Assembly: GCF_000242635.2 (NCBI RefSeq) | Contig: NC_017770.1 | Span: 1,364,001 to 1,428,000, forward strand | Reading direction: 5' to 3' | Length of the DNA stretch: 64,000 nucleotides | DNA from: Solitalea canadensis DSM 3403 | GTDB lineage: Bacteria > Bacteroidota > Bacteroidia > Sphingobacteriales > Sphingobacteriaceae | Shown: positions 14,671 to 62,950 of the stretch, piece after piece | Numbering within the stretch: the first letter of the stretch is position 1 | Layout of the letters: every line of letters starts with the position of its first letter | Made by a program: the position numbers and the translations under genes | The notes under the pieces: generated by a model | Databases searched by the model: none | What the model was told of the DNA's origin: nothing | Seen by the model: only the letters and a program-made list of their open reading frames with translations

Positions 14671-14775
14671 CTTAGCTATTAGCCGTTAGCTATTGGCCTT
14701 TGTTTTAGTTTTCAGTGAATAGCATTTAAGCCTCTAGCTTCTAAAAGCTAATTGCTAAAGGCTAATAGCTATTGA
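14671..14775. repeat. Inverted TTAGC-word repeat between pta and ackA
   Basis: A left arm rich in TTAGC words (14671-14702: TAGCTATTAGCC then GTTAGC, ATTGGC) is matched in inverted orientation by 14743-14775, giving an imperfect hairpin of about 28 bp around a 40-base loop that contains further partial words. The same words fill the spacer at 51088-51226. The element ends at the pta stop codon. Confidence 0.75.
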
Positions 14776-16869
14776 CTATTCTTGTGCCTGAATTGCAGTG
14801 ATTACAACGGTGTTAAATATATCATCAACAGTACATCCACGACTTAAGTCATTTACGGGTTTATTTAAACCTTGTAACATAGGACCTATTGCCAATGCGC
14901 CAGTTTCTCGTTGTACCGCTTTATAAGTGTTATTTCCTGTATTCAGATCAGGGAAAATTAACACACTAGCTTGTCCAGCCACATCAGAGTTAGGCATCTT
15001 TTGTTTTCCAACAGTTGGATCAACAGCTGCATCATATTGAATCGGACCTTCAATTTTGAGATCAGGTCGTTTTTCTTTAACAATCTCGGTTGCTTTACGA
15101 ACCTTTTCAACCTCTTCTCCTTGTCCCGATGTTCCTGAAGAGTACGAAAGCATGGCGATTTTAGGTTCAATGCCAAACATTAAACTACTTTCCGCAGAAG
15201 AAATAGCAATTTCCGATAGTTGTTCAGCCGTAGGGTTTGGATTTACGGCGCAATCGCCAAAAACAGAAACGCGATCTGGTAAACACATGAAGAAAACAGA
15301 AGAAACAACTGAAACTCCGGGTTTCGTTTTTACGAATTGTAAAGCCGGACGAATAGTATGCTGAGTGGTGTGAACGGCACCTGAAACCATACCGTCTGCC
15401 AAGCCTTTATACACCATCATCGTTCCGAAATAAGAAACATCACTCATCATATCCCGGGCCATATCCATGTTTACGCCTTTTTCTTTGCGCAGGTCGAAGA
15501 ACGTTTCGACGAAATCCTGAAAATGTTCAGATTCTGTAGGCTTAACGATATTGAACTTATTAATATCTACACTAAGCGCTAAACGCTTAACAGCTGCCTG
15601 AATGTCATCTTTATTTCCAATAACAGTAAGGTCCACAATATCCTGATTAACCAAACGGGCTGCAGCAGTCAAAATACGATCATCATTACCTTCTGGCAAT
15701 ACAATATGTTTACGAGCTTTCTTAGCACGTTTAACCAGTTGATATTGGAACATCCGAGGGGTAATGCCTTCAGGTTCAAATGTGATGATACGCTGATCAA
15801 GTTCTTTTGTATCTACATAACGCTCAAAAGTATTGATTGCCAATTCAATTTTTGTGGTATTATCCGGGTATATTCTTGATCGAACAGAACCGATAAGATT
15901 GGTCGTTTCAAAAGTTCCTTTTTCTGTAGCAATGATTGGAACTTTTGAATCCAGGCCTTCAATCAGATCTAATACAGGTTCATCGGGTAATAAGTCTCCG
16001 GTAAGCACCAATCCGGCAACTGGCGGATAATTTTTAGAAATATTGGCCTGCAGTGCACTGATAATAATATCGGCACGATCACCAGGGGTAACCACCATAG
16101 TATTTTCCCTTAAACGTGTAAGGAAATTACGAAGCATCATAGCACCTACAATCGCATTATCAACCTGGTTAGTCAGTTTATTTTCACCGAATAATAATTT
16201 ACCCTTCAATGTTTCGAAAATCTCCTGCATGGTAGGATTACTCAACTCTTTTATACCCGGAATAACTGATTTTATAGTTCTTGCAGGTAAATTTTCTTTG
16301 AGTAGGGTGGTGAGTTCAAAAGCTTGGGTAGAGTCAATTTTGTTAGCTATAACCCCTAAAACCTGAACCTCCTTGTCGTTAAAACTATTGTGAGCGGTTC
16401 GCATAGCACCCGAAACCTCGTGGATTGTTTTTTCTTCACCCGAAAGAACAATAATAACAGGTACACCTAGATTTTTAGCTATTGATACGTTTAAATCGAA
16501 TTCAAAAGCTGTTCCTTCCCCAATGAAGTCAGAACCTTCTATCAATACAAAATCATAACTCTCTTCCAGTATCTTATACTTACGGATAATAGCATCAATA
16601 ATATCCGCCTCCTTATTCATGTTAATAAGGTGAAAAACCTCACTCCGGGTAAATGCATAAGAAGCAGTATAGTCCTGTTCAAGTTCAAAATAGCGTATTA
16701 TCGTCTGGATCGTACTGTCTTTCTTTAGTTTAACAGGATCGTCATCAACAATTGGCTTAAAATAGGCGATCCTTTTGGCTTTGCTCGAGAGCATGTTCAT
16801 CAGGCCCAATGCAACTACTGATTTCCCACTATAAGGTTCAGAAGTAGCAATGTAAATAGCATTTGTCAT
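14776..16869 (-). CDS. pta: Phosphate acetyltransferase, long form
   Basis: Converts acetyl-CoA and phosphate to acetyl phosphate. The 697-residue protein has the long-form architecture: an N-terminal dethiobiotin-synthetase-like P-loop domain (SEPYSGKSVVALGLM, residues 10-24), a central DRTGG domain (about 215-330) and the C-terminal PTA/PTB catalytic domain (from about 375; motifs LPEGNDDRI, GMVSGAVHTTQHTIRPALQ, SYSSGTSGQGEEVEKV). It is the first gene of pta-ackA. The N-terminal domain is thought to be regulatory in long Pta enzymes. Confidence 0.95.
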   Translation of the reverse strand: MTNAIYIATSEPYSGKSVVALGLMNMLSSKAKRIAYFKPIVDDDPVKLKKDSTIQTIIRYFELEQDYTASYAFTRSEVFHLINMNKEADIIDAIIRKYKILEESYDFVLIEGSDFIGEGTAFEFDLNVSIAKNLGVPVIIVLSGEEKTIHEVSGAMRTAHNSFNDKEVQVLGVIANKIDSTQAFELTTLLKENLPARTIKSVIPGIKELSNPTMQEIFETLKGKLLFGENKLTNQVDNAIVGAMMLRNFLTRLRENTMVVTPGDRADIIISALQANISKNYPPVAGLVLTGDLLPDEPVLDLIEGLDSKVPIIATEKGTFETTNLIGSVRSRIYPDNTTKIELAINTFERYVDTKELDQRIITFEPEGITPRMFQYQLVKRAKKARKHIVLPEGNDDRILTAAARLVNQDIVDLTVIGNKDDIQAAVKRLALSVDINKFNIVKPTESEHFQDFVETFFDLRKEKGVNMDMARDMMSDVSYFGTMMVYKGLADGMVSGAVHTTQHTIRPALQFVKTKPGVSVVSSVFFMCLPDRVSVFGDCAVNPNPTAEQLSEIAISSAESSLMFGIEPKIAMLSYSSGTSGQGEEVEKVRKATEIVKEKRPDLKIEGPIQYDAAVDPTVGKQKMPNSDVAGQASVLIFPDLNTGNNTYKAVQRETGALAIGPMLQGLNKPVNDLSRGCTVDDIFNTVVITAIQAQE

Positions 16870-16975
16870 AAAAGTATTTAAAGGTTTTTGAGAGTTTTAA
16901 GGCTCTTTTTTTACTGGAAATTGAAGATAGGCAAAAAAATACTGTCGACAAATGACTGGTATCAGGTTTTATTAG

Positions 16976-17010
16976 AAACAAAAAACTCCCCGGTGTTTTC
17001 CGGGGAGTTT
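16976..17010 (-). terminator. Intrinsic terminator of the C1B peptidase gene
   Basis: AAACTCCCCGG and CCGGGGAGTTT form a perfect 11-bp stem with a six-base loop. On the minus strand a TTTTTTG tract follows, 33 bases beyond the stop codon of the peptidase. Confidence 0.9.
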
Positions 17011-17042
17011 CGGTCGATTTTTCGTGTAGTTGTAAAAAAATC

Positions 17043-18227
17043 TTACAAACCCAATTTCTTTTTAATGTCTGAAGGTATACCGTCTTTGTGTAATAAAAAG
17101 GCAGTAGTCTTGTATTTTACAAACTCTTTGGTTACGTACAAATATCCTTTATAGTCGTTCGTTTCTCCCCAAGAGTTTTTAACAATGTAGTATTCTTTTC
17201 CGTTTTGATCTTTTGCCAAACCGGTAATTTGCATACCATGATCATCGGTAGTATTATAGTTGTCAAATGCAGCCTGACGAAGTTCCTCTGTGATGATCAT
17301 TTCTTCTCTAGGACCGTTGAACATCGTTCCTTTTTCATCAGCAGTCATCTCTTCAAATTTCTTAGCAGGAACATATGCAACACCATTTTTCCAGCTAAAA
17401 CCTTTTTCACTTACATCAGTAGCCCATGCAACAGTAAACCCTTTTTTAACTGCATTATCAATAATATTGATCATGTCATCCATTTTAACGTTGTAAACCT
17501 GATCCAATGACCAGTTATCAGGTACCATTAACAGCATTTTTTCATAATATGGTTTGTTAATGAAAGATGATAATTCAACATAATCTTTTGGATTAATGCC
17601 AACTCTCTCTTTAGCGAACGATTGCGGAGTATATGTTTTTCCTTCATAAGTGAAAGTTGCTGGAACTTCACCTAAATAAGAATCAATAACAGCAGTATAA
17701 GCTTTTTTCCAGTTTGGAGTTAATTCACCATTCGGGTTTTTAACGACCGCCTGTAAAACAGCTTCGGTAATGGCTGCCATTTCTTTGAACTGATTTTTCT
17801 TAGTGCCATAATTTAAACCGGTATAAACGTCTTGTGGCAGAGCTCCATACTGGGCATACATATTTATAACGTCATGGCATGCACCTCCGTCACCTAGGCT
17901 GATTGCTCCATGCATACGCACGTAATTAACACCTTTTTCAATGTAAGCATTTCTTGCGGTGAAGATCTCTGCTAAATCTACCGGCTTTTTACCCAAACGA
18001 ATCATTTCTGATTCAAGAAATGAGTTAGTAGAATAACTCCAACAAGTGCCTGAACTACCTTGATTTTTAACTGAAGTAGCTTCTGCATTCGTTACAGTAG
18101 TAAAATTGAAGCCTTCTTTACTGCTTGCACTTTGATTGTTCTCTAAACTTTTGATCAGGTTATCCTGGGCATTTACGGCTGTAGCCAGGGCAATGAGAGG
18201 TACAACAAGAAAATATTTAACGTTCAT
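17043..18227 (-). CDS. Secreted C1B family aminopeptidase (bleomycin hydrolase/PepC-like)
   Basis: Papain-like cysteine peptidase. The ATG at 18227 gives a clear signal peptide (MNVKYFLVVPLIALATAVNA|Q); an upstream in-frame start would bury it behind 19 residues. Catalytic Cys62 lies in NQGSSGTCWSYS, the His in DDHGMQITGL and the Asn in KNSWGE, so all three catalytic residues are present. The 394-residue length is slightly short of cytoplasmic PepC (about 445). Export to the periplasm is unusual for classical bleomycin hydrolases but common among Bacteroidota homologues. Single gene with its own terminator. Confidence 0.88.
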   Translation of the reverse strand: MNVKYFLVVPLIALATAVNAQDNLIKSLENNQSASSKEGFNFTTVTNAEATSVKNQGSSGTCWSYSTNSFLESEMIRLGKKPVDLAEIFTARNAYIEKGVNYVRMHGAISLGDGGACHDVINMYAQYGALPQDVYTGLNYGTKKNQFKEMAAITEAVLQAVVKNPNGELTPNWKKAYTAVIDSYLGEVPATFTYEGKTYTPQSFAKERVGINPKDYVELSSFINKPYYEKMLLMVPDNWSLDQVYNVKMDDMINIIDNAVKKGFTVAWATDVSEKGFSWKNGVAYVPAKKFEEMTADEKGTMFNGPREEMIITEELRQAAFDNYNTTDDHGMQITGLAKDQNGKEYYIVKNSWGETNDYKGYLYVTKEFVKYKTTAFLLHKDGIPSDIKKKLGL

Positions 18228-18582
18228 ATACAGTGATTGAGTTTTTTGAAAGCGCCAAATATAAGAATTAAGCAATGGGAGCAAAGGACAATAACTCTTT
18301 GTAACTGATTTATTTCAGTTGGCAACGGAGGTTTAACAAAAAGGAAAATTATTTATTCAGAAAGCTAATAAGACCTACTATGTTTATTCTTTTCGTGCAG
18401 GATCTTTGATTATTCTGTAGACAAATAACGTAACAATAAAAATTTCGGAAGCAAGCAAAGCAATATAAAGCATGGCGCGTAAAATTTAGAGAATGCGAAA
18501 CTAATACTTTTGCTTGTTTTTAAAATAGTTGTTGATAAGTTGTTGATAGGTTGTTGTTTAGGAGATTTATTTGGTGCAAAGT
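18228..18582. other. Intergenic gap without recognised features
   Basis: About 355 bases between the peptidase start and the end of the FMN reductase pseudogene. It is AT-rich, and I see no convincing ORF, terminator or repeat. It presumably holds the promoter of the peptidase. Confidence 0.4.
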
Positions 18583-19093
18583 TTATTTTATTGCGATTAG
18601 TGATTTTAACAAATCTTTTAATTGCTCTTTTAGTTCCGGATTGTTAATTTCTCCTGTGGAATTTAATTTTGATCTAATAAAAGAAATAAGCAATGTTACA
18701 GAATCCGGTGTTTTTGTTGACAAGGCACTCAGAATATTAAGAAGGGCAGCGTGTCCCTTTCTCTCCTTGGGAGGAAGCCGTAATTAAGGCAACTGGTTTT
18801 TCTACAAATTCACCAGACGATACGGTCCAATCGATTGCGTTTTTTAAAGCTCCGGGAACGCCAAAAGCATATTCTGGTGTGCAAATTAATAGTACATCAG
18901 CTTCCTTGATTGCCCTTTTAAAATGTAGAACAGCTTGCGGAACCTCATCGCTATCATCAAATGCAGAAATAGCTGCTAATTTATCGTAAACCTGAAAATC
19001 TACATGCTCGGGAGTTATTGTTGAAATAAAATCTAAGATCTTGTTGGATGAAGAATTATTTCGGAGACTTCCGGGAATTGCTAAGATTTTCAT
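18583..19093 (-). pseudogene. NADPH-dependent FMN reductase, frameshifted
   Basis: Flavodoxin-fold oxidoreductase: AIPGSLRNNSSSNKIL is the FMN phosphate loop and TPEYAFGVPGALKNAIDW the family core. The frame ends early at codon 118. Dropping one G from the GGG of codon 113 (plus-strand CCC 18755-18757) restores a sensible C-terminus (GHAALLNILSALSTKTPDS...) reaching a stop at 18583, total about 169 residues, the normal family length. So this is one gene with a +1 frameshift: genuine decay or a one-base sequencing error. It is last in the murA/lysE minus-strand run, 30 bases after the LysE gene. Confidence 0.85.
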
Positions 19094-19123
19094 AAACAGA
19101 ATGTTTGTTTTTGTTGGTAGTTC

Positions 19124-19771
19124 TTAGATGAGATGCTTGTACCTAAGACCAAAAACTACTAACTGAATAAGTCCTAATACAATAAATACCCAACCGATTG
19201 CTTTATTAATATTTCCGTTCACCAACTTATTGATTCGCTCTTTTTTCCAGTGGGCCACACCGGCGAACAGCATTAATAATCCTAGTGCTCCGGCAGCTGC
19301 ACCAAATACAAACAATGATTTTTCCATCTTATTATCCAGGGAAAAAACATGAATACTTGTATTATAGATTAAAACAGTACTCCAGAACGGTAATAGTAAA
19401 GGATTAACAATTGAAAGCATAAAACCTTTCATAAAGTCGCCAAATAAAGTACTTGGATACTCTTGTGGTTCTGTGTTTTCAGGTTCTTTATATTTAATGA
19501 TTTTGAAAATACCCAACCCTAATAGGAGAGGAACCATAAAAAAGCCTGCATAGGTAAAGAATGAACTTTTAGCATCGATCAGACTTGTTCCGGCAACAGC
19601 AATTAAAGCGTATAGAATTTCAGGTAAGCAACCACCTATTGAAACCCAAAACGCTGCTTTGAAGTTTTTATTGACAGATGTTTGTATTACCGTAAGATTT
19701 ACCGGCCCTAACTGTAAAGAGCCGATAAAACTTGCGACAAATGCAATTGCAAAAATATATAGTTGCTCCAT
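19124..19771 (-). CDS. LysE/RhtB family amino-acid exporter
   Basis: Inner-membrane transporter of 215 residues with about six hydrophobic segments. The N-terminal AFVASFIGSLQLGPVNLTVIQTSV resembles the LysE GxxxGPxN signature region, here with QLGPVN. The substrate cannot be read from sequence. It sits 47 bases after murA and 30 bases before the FMN reductase remnant, so it probably shares their transcript. Confidence 0.8.
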   Translation of the reverse strand: MEQLYIFAIAFVASFIGSLQLGPVNLTVIQTSVNKNFKAAFWVSIGGCLPEILYALIAVAGTSLIDAKSSFFTYAGFFMVPLLLGLGIFKIIKYKEPENTEPQEYPSTLFGDFMKGFMLSIVNPLLLPFWSTVLIYNTSIHVFSLDNKMEKSLFVFGAAAGALGLLMLFAGVAHWKKERINKLVNGNINKAIGWVFIVLGLIQLVVFGLRYKHLI

Positions 19772-19818
19772 TGATGATTAAAAATTATCTGCAAGAGCAA
19801 TATTAGCAGTAGAAAAAA

Positions 19819-21135
19819 TTATTCATTTACGGTAATACGTTTAATATCAGCACCAAGGGCTTGTAATCGTACATCGATATCTTGGTAACCACGATCAATT
19901 TGCTCGATGTTGAATATGGTGCTTTTGCCTTCGGCTGATAAAGCTGCAATAAGCAATGAAACTCCGGCACGAATATCAGGTGAGGTCATTGAAATACCAC
20001 GCAACTGATTGCGGCGACCTAAACCTATAACATTTGCTCTGTGCGGATCACAAAGTATGATCTGAGCTCCCATGTCAATCAGTTTATCTACGAAGAATAA
20101 ACGGCTTTCGAACATTTTCTGGTGGATCAGCACGCTTCCTTTTGCCTGAGTAGCAACTACCAATACAATACTTAATAAGTCGGGAGTGAAGCCTGGCCAA
20201 GGAGCATCAGCTATTGTTAAAATAGAACCGTCGATAAATGTTTCAATTTCGTATACCTCTTGCGAAGGAATAAAAATATCGTCACCTCTGCGTTCTAATT
20301 TGATACCTAAACGTTTGAATACCTCCGGAATAACACCTAACTCCTCGTAGGCTACATTTTTGATGGTAATTTCAGACTTTGTCATGGCGGCTAAACCGAT
20401 AAAACTACCAATTTCAATCATATCAGGCAGCATGCGGTGTTCGGTTCCTCCTAATTTTTCAACTCCTTCAATGGTTAATAAATTAGAACCAATACCTGAA
20501 ATTTTTGCACCCATTCTGTTCAACATTTTACAAAGTTGTTGCAAATAGGGCTCACATGCGGCATTATAGATGGTTGTTGTTCCTTTTGCTAAAACTGCAG
20601 CCATAACTACGTTTGCAGTTCCGGTTACAGAAGCTTCATCTAACAACATATAGGTTCCTTTAAGATCACTTGCGTCAACACTGAAGAAATGATCAACCGG
20701 ATTATAATTAAATTTTGCTCCCAGTTTTTCAAAACCAAGGAAGTGAGTATCTAAACGACGGCGTCCGATTTTGTCGCCACCTGGCTTAGGGATATAAGCT
20801 TTTCCAAAACGAGCCAATAATGGTCCTACGATCATTACTGAACCGCGTAAAGCACCACCTTTTTTCTTAAACTTGTCAGAGTTTAGGTATTCAAGATCGA
20901 TGTTTTTAGCCTCAAAAGTATAAGTGTCTTTTGAAATACGTTCAACATTAACGCCTAAATCTTTTAATAAATCGATCAGTTTATTTACATCCACAATGTC
21001 AGGGATGTTAGAAATTGTGATCTTTTCTTCAGTTAAAAGAACGGCTGAAATGATTTGCAACGCTTCGTTCTTAGCGCCTTGCGGCGTAATTTCTCCTTTA
21101 AGTTTTTTTCCTCCAATTATTTCAAAAGCACTCAT
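19819..21135 (-). CDS. murA: UDP-N-acetylglucosamine 1-carboxyvinyltransferase (Asp-type MurA)
   Basis: First committed step of peptidoglycan synthesis, transferring enolpyruvate from PEP to UDP-GlcNAc. The 438 residues show the EPSP-synthase-like inside-out barrel, with GAKNEALQI (Lys22-Asn23) and RGSVMIVGPLLARFG. The active-site loop reads PKPGGDKIG: Asp121 stands where E. coli has Cys115, the residue alkylated by fosfomycin. The rest of the loop and the RRRLDTHFLG segment are intact, so activity is expected. Its neighbours, DUF4290 and the UvrD-type helicase, are probably in the same operon. Confidence 0.95.
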   Translation of the reverse strand: MSAFEIIGGKKLKGEITPQGAKNEALQIISAVLLTEEKITISNIPDIVDVNKLIDLLKDLGVNVERISKDTYTFEAKNIDLEYLNSDKFKKKGGALRGSVMIVGPLLARFGKAYIPKPGGDKIGRRRLDTHFLGFEKLGAKFNYNPVDHFFSVDASDLKGTYMLLDEASVTGTANVVMAAVLAKGTTTIYNAACEPYLQQLCKMLNRMGAKISGIGSNLLTIEGVEKLGGTEHRMLPDMIEIGSFIGLAAMTKSEITIKNVAYEELGVIPEVFKRLGIKLERRGDDIFIPSQEVYEIETFIDGSILTIADAPWPGFTPDLLSIVLVVATQAKGSVLIHQKMFESRLFFVDKLIDMGAQIILCDPHRANVIGLGRRNQLRGISMTSPDIRAGVSLLIAALSAEGKSTIFNIEQIDRGYQDIDVRLQALGADIKRITVNE

Positions 21136-21195
21136 CTGTGTTGTATCTCAGGATTATTTAAGTATCGATTATGTTGTGCGAAAAAGTAGTTTTAG

Positions 21196-21996: not shown

Positions 21997-22042
21997 GTAG
22001 TGGTGTGTTTACGTTCAAGCCTTTTTACAGGGCAATTCTTTT

Positions 22043-24316: not shown

Positions 24317-24555
24317 TGTATAGTAAGTTATTAAGTATGGTAATTATCCTGAAAAAGCTAGACAATTCTAATCTTTGTCGTAACCAGAATTGCTGATAAC
24401 AACTTTTGAATAAAGCTACAAAGTTCAGGATTTTTAGCCTGCTAAGTTAAGGATTTTTTTATTTTCAGCGTTAAGCAACACCTGCAAACTTCTTTAAAAG
24501 AGACTTCTCCTAACTAATTTTCTGTGTATAGTTATGGCTTTGCAGTTTAAACTAA

Positions 24556-25137: not shown

Positions 25138-25188
25138 AAAGTGTTAATATTCAAGGCTGCAAACAAACCTACGTCATTTGTATCAAAA

Positions 25189-37890: not shown

Positions 37891-38235
37891 TTTTTTAGTC
37901 CGGAGTCGTGAGTCAGGAGTCGTGAGTCAGGAGTTCGGAGCGTTTATGGATAGATTATAGTTCATGGATAGTTCATGGTTCATGGTTCATGGATCATAGT
38001 GCTTTTTTAGTCCATGGTCCATAGTCCATAGACCATGGTCAATTATATAACGGTAATAAATAATTATTGATAAGAGCTATTGTCTATAGTACTAGACCTA
38101 ATAACTTAACTTCAATCATAAAATGTTAGAGATTGTACTTTAGGCATAGTGGTTTGTATTATCATCATGCTAATTACTATGGTCCATGGACTATGGTCTA
38201 TGGACCCAAATAACACATCACGCAAATCGCCATGA
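37891..38235. repeat. Word-repeat block C (GAGTC, TTCATGG and CCATAGTCC words)
   Basis: It opens with TTTTTTAGTC and four GAGTCG/GAGTCA words (37891-37940), then TTCATGG words (37960-37996), a CCATGGTCCATAG array (38010-38040), about 137 bases of ordinary AT-rich DNA, then an inverted CCAT array (38178-38206) and ATGAACTATGATC words to 38235. The two CCAT arrays are reverse complements and could fold into a long imperfect hairpin. It lies between convergent genes. The first 32 bases match 40804-40835 in inverted orientation at 27 of 32 positions. Confidence 0.8.
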
Positions 38236-38262
38236 ACTATGATCAATGAACTATACGCTCAA

Positions 38263-39549: not shown

Positions 39550-40401
39550 ATGGCCACACGTAAAAGCAGCTCAACTCGTACATCTTCAAAAAAAAGAACC
39601 CAAGGAATCCCTATTCGTTATTTCTGGTGGAAAGTCAGTGGATTTTTATTCCTAATGTGCTTTATTGTATTCTATGCTCCAATTGTTAAAACTTTCCTTA
39701 CTATTAAAGAAGCTGTATCGGGGGAGTTTACAGATTTCCGCTACACTCATGTAGATTCCTACGGAATTAAAATTCCCAAGCGTTTTAAAGTCCACGGCAT
39801 TGATGTTTCTAAGTACCAGGATCGCATCGATTGGAAAAAAGTAAAAGCCATGCAGGATGAGGGTGTAAAAATCGATTTTGTATTTATAAAAGCTACTGAA
39901 GGTCAGTTTAACATCGATCCGCAATTTCAACGCAACTGGCGACAAAGTAAAAAGGAGGGTATGATCCGAGGTGCATATCATTATTTTAAGCCTCGTAAGT
40001 CAGGTAAGTGGCAAGCTGCTTTATTTTTGCAGACTGTAACCTATGAATCAGGAGACTTACCTCCTGTTATTGATATTGAAGAAACCGGACGATTGGAACC
40101 CGAAGAATTGCGTGAAAATCTTCGTGAATGGTTGGAAGTAGTTGAGAAAAAAGTAGGAGAGAAGCCCATCATTTATACCGGCTATAAATTCTACGAAGAT
40201 TACCTGAAAGGCTATTTTGATGAATATCCTTATTGGATCGCTCATTACTATCAATCGAAACTCAAAATCACTGACGATACTAAATGGAGTTTCTGGCAAC
40301 ATTCAGATATCGGCAAAGTCGACGGAATCCGACAACCGGTAGACTTTAACGTCTATAACGGAAATCTTGAGGATTTGAAAGATTTGTGCCTGGAGTTTTA
40401 G
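39550..40401 (+). CDS. GH25 family lysozyme-like protein, membrane-anchored (copy 2)
   Basis: Paralogue of the GH25 protein at 36330 with the same layout: a basic Ser/Thr/Arg/Lys-rich N-terminus, a membrane anchor (about 30-45, FLFLMCFIVFYAPIV) and a GH25 domain from VHGIDVSKYQ to residue 283. The acidic residues in GIDVS and VIDIEETG and the WQHSDIGKVDGI ending are intact. Orientation suggests a periplasmic domain. It is enclosed, with the BamA-like gene, by inverted word-repeat blocks. Confidence 0.9.
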   Translation: MATRKSSSTRTSSKKRTQGIPIRYFWWKVSGFLFLMCFIVFYAPIVKTFLTIKEAVSGEFTDFRYTHVDSYGIKIPKRFKVHGIDVSKYQDRIDWKKVKAMQDEGVKIDFVFIKATEGQFNIDPQFQRNWRQSKKEGMIRGAYHYFKPRKSGKWQAALFLQTVTYESGDLPPVIDIEETGRLEPEELRENLREWLEVVEKKVGEKPIIYTGYKFYEDYLKGYFDEYPYWIAHYYQSKLKITDDTKWSFWQHSDIGKVDGIRQPVDFNVYNGNLEDLKDLCLEF

Positions 40402-40403
40402 TT

Positions 40404-40835
40404 TGTTGGTTCATGGTTCATAGGGCTTGTATATTGTGATATTTGGTCCATGGTCCATAGTCCATAGACCATGGTGACTTGCTTGCTGTATTAAAAGGAC
40501 CATCTACAATTGTCCTTATACTATTGATCGTGAACTATTGTCTCCTGTTCTTGTCTCTTTTAATCCTACATTTTTAAAGGGAAATAACCAAGTTTTACTA
40601 TGGACTATGGACCATGGTCTATGGACAAAATTATCGCGCTATACAAGCACCATGAACCATGAACTAAAAATCACGACACAATTTCCGATATATAAAAATC
40701 TATGGACTATGGACCATGGTCTATGGACAAAACTATCGCGCTATGCAAGCACCATGAACCATGATCTATGAACCATGAACTAATCATAAACCCAAAAGAT
40801 TCGCGACTTCCGACTCCCGACTCAAGACTAAAAAA
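40404..40835. repeat. Word-repeat block D with a 102-bp tandem duplication
   Basis: After GH25 copy 2 come TTCATGG words and a CCATGGTCCATAG array (40445-40474), then a near-identical segment twice: 40598-40666 and 40700-40768, period 102 bases, each an inverted CCAT array, a TATCGCGCTAT core and CCATGAACC words. Further ATGAACC words follow, and the block ends in GACTC words with TAAAAAA (40803-40835), the inverted counterpart of the start of block C. The remaining bases to the aldo/keto reductase at 40934 hold nothing recognised. Confidence 0.8.
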
Positions 40836-50538: not shown

Positions 50539-51087
50539 ATGTTACACTCTCTCGTTCGCAATTGGTGGGTCATTCTGTTAAGAGGATTTATAGCTTTAGT
50601 TTATGGAATAATTGCTTTTATATGGCCTGGTATTACATTGATCACCCTTTTATATTTTCTTGGATTTTATTTGATTGCTGACGGTCTGTTGGGCTTGTTT
50701 ACGGTGATTTCAAGCTGGGGGCATCGTGAAGATAAATGGATATTAGTATTGGATGGTTTATTGAGTTTGGGGGTTGGCCTAATTGCACTAAGATCGCCAA
50801 TAGAAGCTGGAATTGCAATTATCTTTATTGTAGGATTTTGGGCAATTCTAGGCGGAATAACCAAAATCGCATTTGCTATACATGTTCGTAGTGAAATAAA
50901 AGGAGAGGGATGGATTGCTTTTAGTGGAGTATTGTCGATTCTTTTGGGATTCTTTCTAATGGCAAATCCTTTGGCTGGATCCGTAAGCCTGATTTGGCTT
51001 ATCGCCTCCTTTTCTATCGTCATCGGTTTTATTTGGATTGTCACCGCTTTTAGAGTCCGATCGTTTGGCAGACGTTTGAGGTATTAG
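50539..51087 (+). CDS. HdeD family membrane protein (DUF308)
   Basis: Small inner-membrane protein of 182 residues with six hydrophobic helices arranged as repeated pairs. Motifs are WWVILLRGFIALVYGIIAFI, LYFLGFYLIADGL and FSGVLSILLGFFLMANP. HdeD in E. coli is linked to acid resistance, but the biochemical role is not known and may differ here. Single gene facing the LytTR operon across a word-repeat spacer. Confidence 0.85.
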   Translation: MLHSLVRNWWVILLRGFIALVYGIIAFIWPGITLITLLYFLGFYLIADGLLGLFTVISSWGHREDKWILVLDGLLSLGVGLIALRSPIEAGIAIIFIVGFWAILGGITKIAFAIHVRSEIKGEGWIAFSGVLSILLGFFLMANPLAGSVSLIWLIASFSIVIGFIWIVTAFRVRSFGRRLRY

Positions 51088-51226
51088 CTATTAGCCATTA
51101 GCAGTTAGCTTTTAGCTAGTAGGAGCTAATGACTAACTGCTTATAGCTAACAGCTAAACTAATTAACCATTAGCCTTTAGTTAGGATAAGTGCTAATAAC
51201 TAAAAGCTAATAGCTAACCGCTAAAA
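51088..51226. repeat. TTAGC-word repeat block B
   Basis: The whole 139-bp spacer between the convergent HdeD and LytTR genes consists of TTAGC/GCTAA words in both orientations (ATTAGCCATTAGC, AGCTAATGACTAAC, GCTAATAGCTAAC). Several alternate hairpins are possible, and it could terminate or stabilise transcripts from both sides. It shares its words with the pta-ackA spacer. Confidence 0.8.
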
Positions 51227-53012: not shown

Positions 53013-53015
53013 AAG

Positions 53016-53083
53016 TGGTTAATGGTTGATGGATCATAGTTCATAGAAATCTTTATTACCTATGAACTATGATCTATTAACCA
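53016..53083. repeat. Word-repeat hairpin E in the LytTR operon
   Basis: GATCATAGTTCATAG (53032-53046) pairs perfectly with CTATGAACTATGATC (53060-53074) around a 13-base loop, and TGGTTAAT (53016-53023) pairs with ATTAACCA (53076-53083). The words match blocks C and D. It fills the spacer between DUF4288 and the kinase gene, so it may cut or attenuate the operon transcript. Confidence 0.8.
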
Positions 53084-53092
53084 GTTGCTTGA

Positions 53093-53449: not shown

Positions 53450-53508
53450 AGTAGTTATCAGTTAAATTGTCAGTGAAAAAGCGTTTAATAAAGCCGTAGT
53501 AGTATCAG

Positions 53509-54300: not shown

Positions 54301-54390
54301 GATCCAAAAGTAGCAGAGATGTTTAATTGTCCAAATGCATTCCCGATGATAGTTATATAAGTCTCGGTGAATAGTAGGATTTGATCGGTG

Positions 54391-54936
54391 AAATATACCT
54401 CACCCTAAATCCCTCTCCTAAAGGAGAGGGACTTTTGAGACAGTGCAAGCTTGCTGTTTTCAGACGCTTTAGAAGATTTCTTAACTGCGGAATTTCGACT
54501 ATGAAATCTTATCGAACACATATTCCGAGCGCTCCCTTCTCCTTAAGGAGAAGGGCCGGGGATGAGGTGAGCTTACTGTTTCAGACGTTTGAGAAGATTT
54601 CTTAACTACTGAATTTCGACTACGAAATTTTATCGAAATATACCTCACCCTAAATCCCTCTCCTTAAGGAGAGGGACTTTTGAGACAGTGCAAGCTTGCT
54701 GTTTCAGAAGTTTGAGATGATTTCTTAACTACGAAATTTCGACTATTAAATTTATGGAAATATACCTCACCCTAAATCCCTCTCCTTAAGGAGAGGGACT
54801 TTTGAGATAGTGCAAGCTTGCTGTTTTCAGACGTTTGAGAAGATTTCTTAACCAAGGAATTTCGACTATGAAATTTATCGAACACATATTCCGAGCGCTC
54901 CCTTCTCCTTAAGGAGAAGGGCCGGGGATGAGGTAA
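54391..54936. repeat. Five-unit intergenic repeat array F
   Basis: Five units of about 100-125 bp in order A-B-A-A-B. Each centres on a 20-22-bp palindrome: CCCTCTCCTTAAGGAGAGGG (A; 54411, 54655, 54778) or CCCTTCTCC-TTAAGG-AGAAGGG (B; 54534, 54900). A units begin ATATACCTCACCCTAAAT; B units end in GGGGATGAGGT, the inverted counterpart. Spacers share a GCAAGCTTGC palindrome, AGATTTCTTAAC and AATTTCGACTA-GAAATT. It fills the divergent gap, ending 18 bases before the next ORF. Confidence 0.85.
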
Positions 54937-54954
54937 AAAGCTTATATTCGTATT

Positions 54955-56979: not shown

Positions 56980-57004
56980 TTCAATTTAAACTGGTTTACA
57001 ATTT

Positions 57005-57607
57005 ATGCTAACACTCGATTTAGGAAGACAAACATTTGGCGATAACATTAATGTAAATAATGTTTTGAGCAGAGCAGAAGTCAATGAATTACTAAACAGT
57101 TGGGTAAAAAATGATCGTTTATTACTCCATATGAATCAAGTGGGTTACCTCATGAGGCAGTGGGCATTGGAGCAGGAAGGGTTATCTGAAGATGAAGCGT
57201 GGAAGTGGGAGATGGCTGGCTTGCTACATGATGCCGATTGGGATCAGTGGCCCGACCAACATTGTCGTTTAATTATCGAAGAGCTTGAAAAAAGAGCGGT
57301 TGATCCTGAAATTATTCATGCAATTGCTTCGCATGGGCCGTTGTACTTTGGTGTGGAACCGGTAAGCAGAATGGATAAAATGCTTTATGCATTGGATGAA
57401 CTTTCGGGTTTGGTCCACGCTTACTCATTAATGCGGCCCGAAAGATACGCAGGCATGGAGCTGAAAGGAGTAAAAAAGCGATTGAAGGAAAAGAGTTTTG
57501 CTGCAAATGTTTCAAGAGATGATATTCAGGATGCTTGTGAAAGAGCATTCCTGCAACTAGATGATCTGATCCAATTTATTATTAAACATCAGGGAAACGT
57601 TAATTAA
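57005..57607 (+). CDS. HD domain phosphohydrolase
   Basis: Soluble 200-residue HD-superfamily protein. The metal ligands appear as His42 (LLHMNQVG), the His75-Asp76 pair (GLLHDADWDQ), a later His in AIASHGP and an Asp in YALDELSGL, so the site is complete. It resembles small HDIG-type hydrolases acting on nucleotides or other phosphoesters; the substrate is unknown. It probably forms an operon with the YyaL-like gene, and its end overlaps the convergent PepSY gene by four bases. Confidence 0.88.
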   Translation: MLTLDLGRQTFGDNINVNNVLSRAEVNELLNSWVKNDRLLLHMNQVGYLMRQWALEQEGLSEDEAWKWEMAGLLHDADWDQWPDQHCRLIIEELEKRAVDPEIIHAIASHGPLYFGVEPVSRMDKMLYALDELSGLVHAYSLMRPERYAGMELKGVKKRLKEKSFAANVSRDDIQDACERAFLQLDDLIQFIIKHQGNVN

Positions 57608-58701
57608 GCGGATACACTGTAGTTAGGGCTCTTTTTAGGAGCCTTTTTCATTCTGATAGTCCACAACAAAAAGCCAGTAATAGAAAGTAGTGGAATACTT
57701 AACCCTGCAAAGCAATATAAAATCTTTATTGGCAAACCGCCATACTCACCAAAATGTAATGGTTTAATTATTTCATTGAACTTATCGCCGAATGGTTTGG
57801 TTGCAATCGAATTAAGTTTATCCATTTTTCCCGATGCTAATTCAACCTGTATCTTATTGGCATAATGAGAATATAGAAAGAAATCGCCTGGTAAACTTCC
57901 CCCAATTTGCATGGTTTTACTACCGGATGGCACTCGGATAAAATTAGGCTGATAATTAGGATATTGATCTTTTATACTGGCTAATACCTCATCTACAGTA
58001 ATGTTTATCGTTATTTCCTTTGATGCAATCTCTTTTTTAGTTTTCTTTTTTGCTGAAGGAAAAGCTATCGAATAACTAATAAGTACACCTGTAACCGCCA
58101 GAATTAAGTTTAACAATAAACTCCAGACACCGATTGTACGATGCAACGATGATGAAAGCGTTTGCTTGTTCTTTCGATTGATTCTGGACTTGAATTGTAA
58201 GACTTTTAAAATGGATTTACGGTAAATAACAAACCCTGTAATGATTGATAAGATGAATAAAATACCGGTAATAAGTACAACAACCTTACCCGTTTGTCCA
58301 GCATGAAGATTGTAATGAAGATTCAACATCCAAACAATTATCGTGTTGTTGCTATTGATTCTTTTCAGTATTTCTCCGGTAACAGGATGGGTATAGATGC
58401 CCAGTCGCTCTTTGGGTGTACGAATACTAAAACAAAGACTTTCGTTTTCTTTCGGTGTTACATTCGTTAGCCTGATTTCAGCTCCCTGGTATTCTTTTCT
58501 AAGTTTTTTGAAAGAGGTGTCGATATTTAATTGTGCAGGATTATAGTGCACTATGGGAGGCTGTAACTGGGCACGGTCAATCTCCTCTCTGAAAACCAAA
58601 ACAGAACCGCTAAGTCCAATGATCAACAAGACAAGGCCTGAAATCAGGCCTGCCAGTTGATGTATCTTAAAAATATTTTTAGTTACCGCTCTTTTCGACA
58701 T
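57604..58701 (-). CDS. PepSY-associated transmembrane protein
   Basis: Inner-membrane protein of 365 residues with four helices: the first after a basic N-terminus (IHQLAGLISGLVLLIIGLSG), then VVVLITGILFILSIITGFVI, SLLLNLILAVTGVLISYSIA and the C-terminal FAGLSIPLLSITGFLLW. Conserved His residues sit near helices (HQLAG, LHYNLHAG, LHRTIG, LHFGEYGG), as in PiuB-type proteins linked to reduction of siderophore-bound iron. It follows the TonB receptor by 42 bases on the same strand. Confidence 0.88.
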   Translation of the reverse strand: MSKRAVTKNIFKIHQLAGLISGLVLLIIGLSGSVLVFREEIDRAQLQPPIVHYNPAQLNIDTSFKKLRKEYQGAEIRLTNVTPKENESLCFSIRTPKERLGIYTHPVTGEILKRINSNNTIIVWMLNLHYNLHAGQTGKVVVLITGILFILSIITGFVIYRKSILKVLQFKSRINRKNKQTLSSSLHRTIGVWSLLLNLILAVTGVLISYSIAFPSAKKKTKKEIASKEITINITVDEVLASIKDQYPNYQPNFIRVPSGSKTMQIGGSLPGDFFLYSHYANKIQVELASGKMDKLNSIATKPFGDKFNEIIKPLHFGEYGGLPIKILYCFAGLSIPLLSITGFLLWTIRMKKAPKKSPNYSVSA

Positions 58702-58743
58702 TCTTATAAATGATTTTCGTAGCTAATCAACCCTGCTATTCAG

Positions 58744-60900
58744 TTAAAATGAATAGCTTAAAGAAAGGTTATAACGTGTTCCATTTGATTGAGTATAATA
58801 ATCATCACGACCGTAGAATTGTGCATACGGAGTATAGTAAGCCTTGTTTAACAGGTTTTCGATACCTAATGACAGTCTGAGGTCTTTGTTAACACTGTAA
58901 GAACCGTTTAAGTTGAAGATGTTATAAGCATTAACCGGACCTTCTCCTAAGTTATAAGCGCCGGTCTTAGTTTTTTCAAAACGATCACGATTTCCTGAAC
59001 GAACCCAATATAGACTTAGATCTAAAGCATTAATTGGTTTATAATTGATGTAAGCAGTTAATTTTGAAGGAGGAATACGTAATCCTGATAAATAATTATC
59101 TCTATCGTCAAATTCTTTATCATTATTAGTATCGATCTTACCTTCAGTATAAGAGTAGGAAGCTCCGGCTTTTACTTTTGAAGAAATGTAAGCATCAGCC
59201 ACCAACTCAAAACCATAAACGCGTTCTGCTGCACGTTGAGGAACAAACCATCCGTTTTCCTGTACTAAATTGGCTCCTAATTTAGAAGTACTGATATATC
59301 CAACAGCCTCAAAATTAAAAATACCAACACGGCTGTTAAATCCTGCTTCATAATTGTTAGCAATAACAGGTTTGGTATTTAATTGTTCCACTGTATTTTC
59401 TTTTGCAGCTCGCAACGTACGACCTAAGTCGTAAATAGAAAATCCTTGTGAAAAACTAACATATGGCGTAAAAAACTGATATTTTGCCAATCGTAGACCG
59501 AAATTGAAGGTAAGTGGATTGTATACCAGTTTGCCCCCTCTAACTGCAATACTAACTGCATTATTAGGTCCTGTCGCCAATGTATTATAATCCTGAATTT
59601 TTACACTAAGGTTTTCATAACGAACTCCTGCCTTAAAAACAAGATACTCGAAAAAGTAAGTTTTTACCTGTAAGTAGGGAGCTAATGAAAAAGCATTCAT
59701 GTTCGGAACCCAAACACGTCCGTCTAATAAACGTTGTGAGGTAACATCATTCAACACATCGCCACCGTAGATAATATCACCTCTGAAATTAGGAGAGAAG
59801 GCATATGGAGTTACAAAGTTTAAACGAAGTCCCTTTTTATCAGAGTTTACCTTTGACTGTCCCCCGTTGTAGAAGCTTTCTGAGTAGCCAAAAGTAGTTT
59901 CAAACTTCTGCATGTACATCGAATAGTTGAAGTCCGTATTGCCAAAAATGTTTTTCTTGGTAAATTGTAAAGCAGCATTATGGTTAAATGGAGTTCCTTC
60001 CCCATCTGTTTTACGCATACCCGGAACACCAATCGTTGGTCTTTCTCCATATTTACCTAGTTGTACAATATAATCAGACTTTTGCTCACTCCTGAAAAAG
60101 TTATACATCAGTTCAAGACGGCTTTCGTCAGAAAGATTGTAGCCAACTTTAGCAAAACCATTGAATGTATTAGTTTCACCCAAACCAAAGTCGGGACTTA
60201 TAACATTTCCTTCAGCATCTTTTAGTACACCGGTTCTTTCAAAACTAAAGTTGGTTGTATAATCAATGTTTTTACCGTTGCCAAACAAAAGCTGGTTTAA
60301 ACGATAACCGTAAGTATCTTTTGCATTTTTAAGTTGTCCGCTACCACCAATGGTAGTTCTGCCGCCAAATTTTTGTTCTGATGGTTTTCTGGTGATATAA
60401 TTGATTAAACCACCATCTGCACCGTTACCATATATTGAAGTTGCTCCTTTTACTACTTCGATTTTTTCGATTGCAGATGGATCAATAGAGCGCATTTCTC
60501 TTGATGCTGCACGTAAAGGAGTTGATTGAGGGATACCGTCGATTAACACAAGAGCATTACGCCCACGCAAAGTTTGTCCTGTACTATAGGAAGTATTAGT
60601 TGCCAAAGCTAAACCTGGAACGGTCCAGCCCATTACATTCGTTATATTAGAATTGATGGTGGCTTGAGTAGCAATTTCTTTTGCATTAAGAACAGTAATA
60701 GTAACTGGAGTTTCGCTTTTAGTTTCCTTGGTTCTTCCTGCTGATACAACAATTTCATCTAATTGACGCTCCATTTCCTTATCAACTTTTGAGCTGTCTG
60801 CTTTAGAAGTTGATTTTGCTTTAGAGGGTTTATTTTGAGCTTGTACGGCTCCGGAAAGTGTTACACAAATAGCTAAAGCGGAAAGTATATATTTAGTCAT
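58744..60900 (-). CDS. TonB-dependent receptor, siderophore/iron type
   Basis: Outer-membrane transporter of 718 residues, with a signal peptide ending AVQAQ, a plug domain (DEIVVSAGRTKETKSETPVT as TonB-box region, KIEVVKGATSIYGNGADGGL) and a barrel ending in aromatic strand NLSLSYSF. The length fits FhuA/FepA-type receptors rather than SusC. The PepSY gene downstream and the Fur-like palindrome upstream point to iron or heme uptake; the ligand is not identifiable. Confidence 0.92.
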   Translation of the reverse strand: MTKYILSALAICVTLSGAVQAQNKPSKAKSTSKADSSKVDKEMERQLDEIVVSAGRTKETKSETPVTITVLNAKEIATQATINSNITNVMGWTVPGLALATNTSYSTGQTLRGRNALVLIDGIPQSTPLRAASREMRSIDPSAIEKIEVVKGATSIYGNGADGGLINYITRKPSEQKFGGRTTIGGSGQLKNAKDTYGYRLNQLLFGNGKNIDYTTNFSFERTGVLKDAEGNVISPDFGLGETNTFNGFAKVGYNLSDESRLELMYNFFRSEQKSDYIVQLGKYGERPTIGVPGMRKTDGEGTPFNHNAALQFTKKNIFGNTDFNYSMYMQKFETTFGYSESFYNGGQSKVNSDKKGLRLNFVTPYAFSPNFRGDIIYGGDVLNDVTSQRLLDGRVWVPNMNAFSLAPYLQVKTYFFEYLVFKAGVRYENLSVKIQDYNTLATGPNNAVSIAVRGGKLVYNPLTFNFGLRLAKYQFFTPYVSFSQGFSIYDLGRTLRAAKENTVEQLNTKPVIANNYEAGFNSRVGIFNFEAVGYISTSKLGANLVQENGWFVPQRAAERVYGFELVADAYISSKVKAGASYSYTEGKIDTNNDKEFDDRDNYLSGLRIPPSKLTAYINYKPINALDLSLYWVRSGNRDRFEKTKTGAYNLGEGPVNAYNIFNLNGSYSVNKDLRLSLGIENLLNKAYYTPYAQFYGRDDYYTQSNGTRYNLSLSYSF

Positions 60901-60951
60901 TTTTATTTGGACTGATTTTAAAGTGCTGCAAAAGTATAAATATCTATTTTG

Positions 60952-60968
60952 TTTAGAATTATTTTAAA
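60952..60968 (-). promoter_or_regulatory. Probable Fur box before the TonB receptor gene
   Basis: TTTAGAATTATTTTAAA is a 17-nt palindrome with one mismatch (left TTTAGAAT, right ATTTTAAA, expected ATTCTAAA). It lies 52-68 bases upstream of the receptor start and resembles Fur-type iron boxes (A/T-rich with GAAT/ATTC core). Repression by iron is the expected effect; this is inferred. Confidence 0.5.
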
Positions 60969-61071
60969 TAATAAGTTTTCAACATTTCTGTTACAAATAA
61001 ATTGGCTGACATAACAATGGATAATTGTACAGGAATGAGTATTTTTCGTCATCAATTAATCAATTTGCCTT

Positions 61072-62709
61072 ATGTATGAGAATCAAATAGAAACAAGCAG
61101 AAACGAAGACATTAATAAACAGCTGCTTTATGAACTAAATACCCGATGGAAAAAAATAAAGGAGGGTGGCGGTCAAAAGTCAGCAGCTAAACAAAAAGAA
61201 AAGGGCAAATTGCTTGCACGCGAGCGAATTGCATATTTAATTGACCCAACTACTGAGTTTACTGAATTTGGTTCTTTTGCAGCTTACGATATGTATCAGG
61301 CTGAAGGAGGATGTCCTGCGGCTGGAGTAATTACAGGCTTGGGTTATGTGTCAGGGAAGTTGTGTGTAATTGTTGCCAATGATGCTACAGTAAAAGCTGG
61401 TGCATGGTTTCCAATGACCGCAAAAAAGAATTTACGTGCTCAGGAAATAGCCATGGAAAACCGTTTGCCTATTATTTACCTGGTAGACAGCGCAGGCGTT
61501 TATTTGCCAATGCAGGATGAAATTTTCCCTGATAAAGAACATTTCGGACGCATATTTAGAAATAATGCAATTATGTCGTCGATAGGCATTGTTCAAATTG
61601 CAGCAATTATGGGTTCTTGTGTAGCAGGGGGGGCTTATTTGCCGATTATGAGTGATGAAGCGTTAATTGTTAATGGTACAGGATCTGTTTTCTTAGCCGG
61701 TTCCTACCTGGTTAAATCTGCCATTGGTGAAGATATTGATAATGAAACATTAGGTGGAGCAACTACGCATTCTGAAATATCAGGAGTTACGGATTACAAA
61801 TGCGAGGATGACAATGACTGTTTGGATAAAATCCGTTCTATAGTGGATAAAATGGGTGATAATCCGAAAGCAGGATTTAGTCGCATTGAGGCTAAAGTAC
61901 CATCTAAGGATGAAAATGAAATCTATGGTATACTTCCCGACAGTCGTGATAAACCATTTGATATGTTGGATATTATTCATCGTTTGGTAGATAACTCTGA
62001 ATTTGATGAATATAAGGAGTTGTATGGGAAATCAATTTTATGCGGTTATGCACGTATTGATGGCTGGGCTGTAGGAATAATTGCCAATCAACGCAAAGTG
62101 GTTAAATCTAAAAAAGGAGAGATGCAGTTCGGTGGAGTAATTTACTCTGATTCAGCGGATAAGTCTACTCGTTTTATCATGAACTGTAATCAAAAGAAAA
62201 TCCCCTTGGTGTTTTTGCAAGATGTAACGGGTTTTATGGTTGGTTCACGTTCGGAACAAGGTGGTATTATTAAAGATGGGGCCAAAATGGTTAATGCAGT
62301 GGCAAATTCAGTGGTCCCTAAATTCACGGTCGTTATTGGTAATTCATACGGAGCTGGTAATTATGCGATGTGTGGCAAAGCTTATGATCCTCGTTTTATT
62401 GCGGCCTGGCCTAGTGCAAAAATTGCCGTTATGGGCGGTTCGCAGGCTGCAAAAACATTATTGCAAATTCAGGAATCTTCAATGAAGGCAAGGGGCGAAG
62501 AAATAACAGACGAGAAAGAACAGCAATTATTAAAGGAAATTACAGATCGCTATAACAGTCAAACTACTCCATATTATGCAGCAGCTCGTTTATGGGTAGA
62601 TGAGATCATTGATCCGTTATCGACTCGCAAATGGATCTCCACAGGAATTGAAGCCGCTAACCATGCTCCGATTGAGAAGCAATTTAATGTTGGGGTGTTG
62701 CAGGTGTGA
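61072..62709 (+). CDS. Acyl-CoA carboxylase beta subunit (carboxyltransferase, methylcrotonyl/propionyl-CoA type)
   Basis: Biotin-dependent carboxyltransferase of 545 residues, moving CO2 from biotin to an acyl-CoA. N-terminal half: KGKLLARERIAYLIDP and YLVDSAGVYLPMQDEIFPD; C-terminal half: LQDVTGFMVGSRSEQGGIIK, IGNSYGAGNYAMCGKAY and PSAKIAVMGGSQAAKTL. The GxY/PMQxE and 'YAMCGRAY'-like segments resemble methylcrotonyl-CoA carboxylase beta rather than propionyl-CoA carboxylase, so leucine breakdown is favoured. The biotin-carboxylase subunit is not in the window. Confidence 0.88.
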   Translation: MYENQIETSRNEDINKQLLYELNTRWKKIKEGGGQKSAAKQKEKGKLLARERIAYLIDPTTEFTEFGSFAAYDMYQAEGGCPAAGVITGLGYVSGKLCVIVANDATVKAGAWFPMTAKKNLRAQEIAMENRLPIIYLVDSAGVYLPMQDEIFPDKEHFGRIFRNNAIMSSIGIVQIAAIMGSCVAGGAYLPIMSDEALIVNGTGSVFLAGSYLVKSAIGEDIDNETLGGATTHSEISGVTDYKCEDDNDCLDKIRSIVDKMGDNPKAGFSRIEAKVPSKDENEIYGILPDSRDKPFDMLDIIHRLVDNSEFDEYKELYGKSILCGYARIDGWAVGIIANQRKVVKSKKGEMQFGGVIYSDSADKSTRFIMNCNQKKIPLVFLQDVTGFMVGSRSEQGGIIKDGAKMVNAVANSVVPKFTVVIGNSYGAGNYAMCGKAYDPRFIAAWPSAKIAVMGGSQAAKTLLQIQESSMKARGEEITDEKEQQLLKEITDRYNSQTTPYYAAARLWVDEIIDPLSTRKWISTGIEAANHAPIEKQFNVGVLQV

Positions 62710-62712
62710 TAA

Positions 62713-62950
62713 AATTACGGGAGTTATGGGTTGCGGGTTTCGAGTTACGTGTTATGAGTTACATATTTCGAGTTGCTTATAGCAAATTGTAATATATTTC
62801 AAGTTTCAAATTATTTGTGCATGTAGTTTTTAAATTCAAAATTATTCATACAAATCGAAAATTAATTAATAACATATAATCCGCAACCCATAACTCGAAA
62901 CCCGTAACTCAAAACTCGCAACCCATAACTCGAAACCCGTAACCCGCAAT
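62713..62950. repeat. GAGTTACGGGTTTC-word repeat block G
   Basis: The spacer between the carboxylase and GNAT genes has a left arm of GAGTTATGGG, TTGCGGGTTTC and GAGTTACGTG words (62713-62776) and a right arm with the same words inverted (62879-62950). The right arm contains a perfect 27-bp direct repeat (62882-62908 and 62917-62943, starting CGCAACCCATAACTCG). Arms can pair into a long imperfect hairpin around about 100 bases of AT-rich DNA. Confidence 0.8.

Follow-up and report, generated by a model that had tools for sequence, protein, structure and literature searches.

The stretch of DNA analyzed here (i.e., the window; 64,000 nucleotides [nt]) covers positions 1364001 to 1428000 of the single 5,202,069-bp contig of Solitalea canadensis DSM 3403. 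Seven of its intergenic spacers (S1 to S7, in order) contain short words repeated in direct and inverted order, as a first-pass annotation of this DNA had reported and as we confirmed for all seven. We propose that six of them probably belong to one genome-wide class of intergenic heptanucleotide arrays. The genes flanking these arrays are functionally unrelated. Their products are an acetate kinase, a phosphotransacetylase (nearest named relatives, Solitalea agri [86%] and S. longa [84%]), a GyrI-like protein, a GH25 protein, an aldo/keto reductase, a LytTR regulator, a histidine kinase, two DUF proteins, a carboxyltransferase, an acetyltransferase, and one protein without a Pfam match. A search of the window against Rfam gave 0 matches, and a literature search of incomplete coverage yielded no description of heptamer arrays in Solitalea that we recognized.

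Autocorrelation revealed an exact 7-nt period common to six of the seven window spacers, with identities of 0.45 to 0.58 at lag 7 and of 0.13 to 0.34 at lags other than multiples of 7. The lag-7 identity of the remaining spacer (S6; 54391 to 54936) was just 0.26, and it has no such period. The spacers had been described as built from words of 5 to 10 nt; the repetition of words stands, but in these six spacers it follows a single exact period, and the longer words are one or two heptamers (e.g., GAGTTACGGGTTTC, which consists of two). A period scan independent of any word, performed on 864 kb (i.e., the window and 40 stretches of the same genome), detected 51, 37, and 23 segments at lags 7, 14, and 21, respectively, and 0 to 16 segments at the remaining lags between 4 and 20. 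With 40 further stretches added (1.664 Mb in total; 32% of the genome), 74 segments were found at lag 7, compared with 1 to 15 at lags 4 to 6 and 8 to 12 (1, 1, 8, 4, 15, 1, 3, and 9 at lags 4, 5, 6, 8, 9, 10, 11, and 12, respectively). The suggestion of a genome-wide class of the same shape with changing words is thus borne out, and sites of this kind extend far beyond the few in the window. Extrapolating from the 52 array gaps in this 32%, we would expect approximately 160 genome-wide. The TTAGC pattern alone (at most 2 mismatches) gave 133 strand-hits genome-wide, while its reversed control gave 1. The array-free gaps of this genome had lag-7 z values of 0.0 (tandem), -0.4 (convergent), and 0.0 (divergent). 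Since these gaps show no lag-7 excess, the arrays are discrete objects, and we rejected a continuum between arrays and ordinary hairpins.

Six word classes recur in the same register (AGCTATT, AGTCCAT, AGTTCAT, AGTCTTG, AGTTACG, and AGATTTG) and cover 58 of the 74 runs in the 1.664 Mb, the other 16 having been excluded as mixed or unclear; the TCCAT and TTCAT classes are related. Position 2 of the word is G in 81 to 98% of the units, and position 1 is mainly A or G (T, up to 14%). Among positions 3 to 7, position 5 is the most variable in all six classes, both in pooled units and as a within-array mean. We set the RG register with six typed reference words, which partly builds in the fixed AG column, and the variability of position 5 is therefore the only spelling result independent of the register. 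Inside a single array (12618 in L044; L-numbers designate DNA stretches, and G-numbers designate genomes), one class changes into another without loss of register. The vocabularies had been considered site specific; because the classes recur genome-wide and merge in register, they are instead sub-types of one heptad family.

With open reading frames (ORFs) called mechanically, only 1 of the 74 segments had >30 nt inside an ORF, in agreement with the earlier remark that the repeats avoid coding DNA. The 52 array gaps include 30 tandem, 19 convergent, and 3 divergent gaps, while all gaps of at least 60 bp include 542, 141, and 174, respectively (i.e., enrichment in convergent gaps, P = 2e-4; depletion in divergent gaps, P = 0.01). 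The window spacers had been assigned to convergent, tandem, and divergent gaps; none of the six heptamer spacers is divergent, and the sole divergent one is S6. A stop codon was located within 10 nt of the array in 35 of 48 cases, compared with a mean of 21.8 and a maximum of 32 in 5000 random placements in the same gaps. The stop codons adjoining arrays are TAG in 15 of 29 cases, against 122 of 659 elsewhere (P = 9e-5; 864-kb sample), as if the first array unit had supplied the stop codon. An array often follows immediately on a stop codon; some arrays surround an ordinary terminator hairpin. At a typical site, an arm of RG words is located on the 5' side and an arm of the reverse-complement class on the 3' side. 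Among class-by-gap cases in which a class occurs in both orientations, the RG arm came first in 27 of 27, a count that excludes the self-complementary TCCAT class. By eye, S4 reads + - + -. This facing layout, with a single direction and a shared spelling rule, is unusual and unexplained.

We compared the same spacers in three other Solitalea genomes (G001, G002, and G003; one genome per species). The spacer of the ackA-pta pair (S1; genes at 13445 to 16869) is 33 to 63 bp long in the three relatives, that of S3 is 113 to 130 bp long as cut, and neither contains an array. Two relatives have no spacer at S4, where the genes overlap at their stop codons, and the third relative has a longer array-free stretch. 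In the relatives, S1, S3, and (in two of the three) S4 are thus short, and they hold no decayed gene. At the three L044 sites, the flanking genes of the relatives end in ordinary terminators without arrays. Because the orthologous sites of S1, S3, S4, and L044 lack arrays, we infer that arrays were gained within the genus. At S5, the orthologous spacer (53013 to 53092) has a facing hairpin in each of the four Solitalea genomes. The hairpins use three word sets, G001 and G003 being near-identical and the three relatives having words other than those of the window; the 7-nt spacing of RG in the relatives was seen by eye and confirmed by script in G001 and G003. At this one site, therefore, the shape outlived the words. 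S2 was comparable in G002 only, where a short hairpin occupies a 61- to 62-bp gap that was picked up at a lower lag-7 threshold. S7 was not comparable: in the relatives, its two flanking genes are separated by approximately 1.5 kb of different DNA, and two of the relatives have another hairpin following the gene. Comparison of S4 with the empty sites of G001 and G003 revealed no target-site duplication by eye, the other flanks being too diverged.

Arms and other features of the seven window spacers (coordinates are those of the window)
Feature	Coordinates	Strand	Description
S1 left arm	14671..14700	+	TTAGC-class heptamers, between the acetate kinase and phosphotransacetylase genes
S1 right arm	14729..14780	-	GCTAA words, reaching into the pta stop codon
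S2 outer arm	37897..37940	+	GAGTC class
S2 inner arms	37950..38043	+	TTCAT, then TCCAT class
S2 facing arms	38177..38256	-	TCCAT, then TTCAT class (TTCAT part by eye)
S3 left arms	40396..40472	+	TTCAT, then TCCAT class; begin at the stop codon of the GH25 gene
S3 facing arms	40597..40780	-	Two copies 102 bp apart, TCCAT then TTCAT class
S3 outer facing arm	40804..40832	-	GAGTC class
S4 first part	51071..51157	+	TTAGC class; left arm crosses the upstream stop codon, then first facing arm
S4 last facing arm	51193..51224	-	TTAGC class; preceded by a short forward stretch (by eye)
S5 left arm	53016..53046	+	TTCAT class
S5 facing arm	53056..53083	-	Partner of the S5 left arm
S6	54391..54936		Not a heptamer array; tandem copies of the CTCTCCTTAAGGAGAG palindromic repeat, a separate element
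S7 left arm	62723..62761	+	GAGTT class, 13 nt past the carboxyltransferase stop codon
S7 facing arm	62878..62949	-	GAGTT class

Arrays also occur outside the genus. Triple heptamers of the TTAGC class were found in 32 of 198 Bacteroidota genomes (including this one), and those of the reversed control in 25 of 198 (our own count). Since the control is nearly as frequent, heptamer arrays are widespread and TTAGC is only weakly special outside this genome, and we rejected the idea that the vocabulary marks descent throughout the phylum. At loci fetched from other genomes for their TTAGC words (i.e., a selected sample), the array gaps are mostly tandem, and several arrays start at stop codons. Twenty-five 10-kb loci not chosen for arrays, mostly from Flavobacteriaceae, held 1 lag-7 segment (other lags, 1 to 5), and G178 held 2 in 200 kb, which indicates that the trait is sporadic; G028, a genome of the same family as S. 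canadensis, held 13 in 200 kb, partly with other words. In IMG/VR, triple heptamers of three word classes formed 26, 37, and 42 stretches on 25, 34, and 38 contigs (our own count), compared with 9 and 12 stretches on 9 and 11 contigs for two control heptamers; the three classes are about 2 to 5 times commoner than the controls, with base composition uncontrolled, some contigs counted twice, and several near-duplicates included. On one IMG/VR contig of 53% G+C content (L253), words of two classes and their intermediates are mixed in register.

Within arrays, neighboring units resemble each other more than units 2 to 7 positions apart do, with mean mismatches rising from 1.81 at distance 1 to 2.67 at distance 4 (a renewed drop at distances 8 and 9 rests on few long runs). 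At L156 (9986 to 10238), the right arm is a long perfect CCGTAAC run, and the left arm is short and imperfect, which looks like a recent one-sided expansion. Both observations support the growth by word duplication that the first-pass annotation had suggested. Different sites had 2 three-unit (21-nt) phrases in common, where shuffles gave 0.68 (P = 0.14; 58 of the 74 runs). Copying of phrases between sites is therefore not above shuffles overall, with the TCCAT class as a partial exception.

The reading that we favor, to which as a whole we assign a probability of roughly 0.55, is that the six spacers represent a single genome-wide class that arose by seeding and slippage. Short two-armed seeds would have reached many gene ends in this lineage, and each arm would have lengthened separately by duplication of the 7-nt unit (i.e., through replication slippage or unequal exchange). 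The units would then have drifted, chiefly at position 5 and, in four of the six classes, at position 1 too, while insertions elsewhere would have been lost to selection, as they disrupt genes or promoters. We favor seeding and 7-nt slippage under weak selection because of the unit duplication, the unshared phrases, arms that are not mirror images, and the lack of a folding bias toward the sense strand (the last two are described below). The arrays probably have no sequence-specific job, and termination or shielding of transcripts by the hairpins may occur as a by-product.

Several points weigh against seeding and slippage. Slippage alone explains neither the single polarity nor the recurrence of six classes at distant sites; the seeding step and the fixed polarity still lack an explanation, and no carrier for the seeds was found. 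Tandem gaps favor the stop side only slightly (16, vs. 12 at the start and 2 ties), and the looser 864-kb scan agrees with the polarity apart from one GAGTC gap that reads +-+. An exact 20-mer of the TCCAT class occurs at 6 places genome-wide (our own count), and TCCAT-like stretches of 30 to 42 nt occur in the relatives; such recurring phrases speak for phrase copying. Only 1 of 51 segments has AG as its most conserved dinucleotide, for which reason we rejected AG as the top dinucleotide of every array; the RG register is thus one of several fixed columns and was partly our choice. Gene-end bias is absent from the arrays of G028 (5 tandem, 5 divergent, and 2 convergent) and from the 26 RGTYCAT stretches in IMG/VR, of which 5 are inside ORFs and 6 occupy divergent gaps.

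We consider it unlikely, although more plausible than the alternatives that follow, that the arrays are selected gene-end elements whose hairpins work in RNA as terminators or 3'-end stabilizers and are kept for that function. The stop-side placement, the depletion in divergent gaps, and the S5 hairpin kept in four species with three word sets are consistent with such a role, as is the strong predicted folding. The earlier statement that the spacers fold into hairpins agrees with DNA shuffles (62710 to 62960, z = -6.3, 0 of 200 shuffles as good; 51088 to 51226, z = -2.3, 4 of 200) and with the RNA minimum free energy per nucleotide, which is -0.287 in 31 array gaps and -0.197 in 385 other gaps (P = 4e-10; 864-kb sample). 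However, the transcribed strand is not the better folder; the sense strand is more stable in just 4 of 18 tandem gaps (P = 0.055, in the opposite direction), which leaves selection on sense-strand RNA unsupported. Gene-end array gaps have no surplus of perfect stems (at least 10 bp long), which occur in 6 of 49 such gaps and in 108 of 616 other gene-end gaps. No T-run was shown to belong to the arms, and the sister genes at S1, S3, and S4 manage without arrays. At L044 (two sites), L046, L071, and L077, the arms enclose an ordinary terminator hairpin (partly by eye), and at L173 they enclose an imperfect one; at L158 and L064 (17237), the terminator is located outside the arms. Class words occupy both correct sides of the stem in 3 of the six perfect-stem gaps by script and in 5 of the six by eye. 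Since perfect stems are no commoner in array gaps, the terminator-centered sites form a sub-type, and a terminator core as the general rule, seen as it is at a minority of sites, was rejected.

The first-pass annotation suggested local growth by duplication and inversion. In such a model, template switching at a hairpin would copy an arm into its mirror image; we regard it as doubtful. It would account for the two arms being of the same class and facing each other in all 27 cases and for the nested class order at S2 and S3, and some sites surround a terminator hairpin able to start such copying. However, two arms from one site do not resemble each other more than same-class arms from different sites do, so that copying by local inversion is unsupported. 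Across 31 arm pairs from same-class sites (the self-complementary TCCAT class was left out), the similarity sum was 352 within sites, with a permuted mean of 384; the length-corrected comparison gave a P value of 0.17, and the loop-proximal comparison gave a P value of 0.92 (identity, 11.13 of 14 within sites and 11.08 between sites). A first impression that arms are less alike than expected by chance was gone after length correction. Random local inversion would also yield both polarities.

Two further explanations appear still less probable. The first invokes mobile palindromic elements resembling miniature inverted-repeat transposable elements (MITEs), with terminal inverted repeats that happen to consist of heptamers. 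The facing arms, the absence of arrays at the sister loci, the recurring 20-mer of the TCCAT class, the tandem arm-terminator-arm duplicate at L077 (16588), and five heptamer-made copies of approximately 100 bp at L120 (G001) are all in its favor. However, the hairpin cores are not common to sites (a BLAST search of seven perfect-stem hairpins from six gaps against the 1.664 Mb returned only the queries themselves and the local L077 copy), the core between the arms varies from 11 to 332 nt (31 pairs), the arm phrases are not above shuffles, and the two arms of a site, which would be its terminal inverted repeats, match no better than arms taken from different sites (31 pairs). The second, on which we place about the same low weight, is an active, polarity-bound process that writes opposed degenerate heptads around gene ends and terminators, both in this genome and in others. 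It would account for the nearly fixed G at position 2, for the free position 5, and for independent arms that obey one rule without copying; for instance, terminator hairpins might prime the synthesis of repeats, or some unknown enzyme might add templated steps of 7 nt. The excess of the three classes in IMG/VR and the in-register mix on L253 can be cited beside it.

A conceptual likeness to repetitive extragenic palindromic (REP) sequences and bacterial interspersed mosaic elements (BIMEs) had also been suggested. That the arrays are such elements mobilized by a cognate RAYT (i.e., a Y1 transposase) is very improbable: the arrays are intergenic, palindromic, and present in many copies, and this genome has two Y1_Tnp genes, but none of the seven Y1_Tnp loci (in three of the four Solitalea genomes) has a period-7 segment within approximately 1.5 kb, G001 has arrays yet 0 Y1_Tnp matches, and G002 has three matches yet 0 TTAGC hits genome-wide and 0 period-7 segments in the 80 kb read. 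The Solitalea arrays also differ from REP sequences and BIMEs in having no 20- to 40-nt consensus common to sites (the TCCAT 20-mer is a partial exception).

The arrays are best filed as a two-armed, single-polarity, gene-end variant of the known intergenic heptanucleotide repeats. Prokaryotic long simple sequence repeats were reportedly also treated by Mrazek in 2007, a study cited in PMC4679880 and PMC4692102. In cyanobacteria, tandem heptanucleotide repeats are named short tandemly repeated repetitive (STRR) sequences, which the Solitalea arrays resemble in their tandem heptamers and several vocabularies per genome, a likeness at the level of description. TAACTGA repeats occur in Beggiatoaceae, cyanobacteria, and five Bacteroidetes (PMC4679880), and GGGAATC repeats in Xanthomonas and GGGGA(C/T)T repeats in Nostoc, with Calothrix heptanucleotides also mentioned (PMC4692102). 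Slippage is proposed as their cause (PMC4679880, PMC4692102), and under-representation between divergent ORFs is reported and a few inverted pairs are mentioned (PMC4692102). In a Beggiatoaceae genome, most repeats precede start codons in one orientation (PMC4679880). The Solitalea arrays share with such repeats an exact 7-nt unit well above other periods, a mainly intergenic location, mixable heptamers, scarcity between divergent genes, and a sporadic distribution over species, including absence at times from the spacers of near relatives. They differ in that their sites typically have two facing arms of one polarity, in that their words vary at certain positions rather than being near-perfect, and in that, in this genome, they tend to begin at stop codons. 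The BrickBuilt MITE/minisatellite of Porphyromonas gingivalis (PMC4596501) is likewise an intergenic element of Bacteroidota with tandem units and small inverted ends, but it has a 23-nt unit with leader and tail subunits, whereas the Solitalea arrays have 7-nt units and no shared core. The excess of heptanucleotides in bacterial spacers was known earlier, but its mechanism has not been established (PMC4679880, PMC4692102). In this genome, the repeats are dense, two-armed, and biased toward gene ends, with a spelling rule and a polarity that can be measured, and the sister species provide empty sites. Given dense arrays and empty sister sites, slippage, templated copying, transposition, and selection predict different outcomes that can be tested.

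Other repeats were noted beside the arrays. S6 is a separate REP-like element, in which tandem copies approximately 122 bp apart have the core CCCTCTCCTTNAGGAGAGGG and conserved flanks. The core gave 18 strand-hits in the genome (palindromic forms counted twice; reversed control, 0) and occurs in 5 of the 99 Bacteroidota genomes searched, S. canadensis among them. At L077 (16588 to 16871), a whole arm-terminator-arm unit of approximately 150 bp is duplicated head to tail behind one gene, and the five copies of the heptamer-made unit at L120 (679 to 1239; G001) are spaced approximately 100 bp apart, the last at 185 bp. A large complex repeat with TTCGACTGCGCTCAG-type words, 11-nt CGTCGAGTATA-like repeats, and heptamers occupies L108 (1 to 1250; G001) and L116 (1 to 1000; G003). 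By eye in an alignment, it differs in length between the two species, and comparison of the two genomes (one per species) showed no clean length difference by a multiple of 7. In the window itself, a PorP/SprF-like gene (4925 to 6724) matches its family over residues 23 to 311 of 599, and its 3' half contains direct repeats (5936 to 6566) that by eye are Lys/Glu/Ala-rich.

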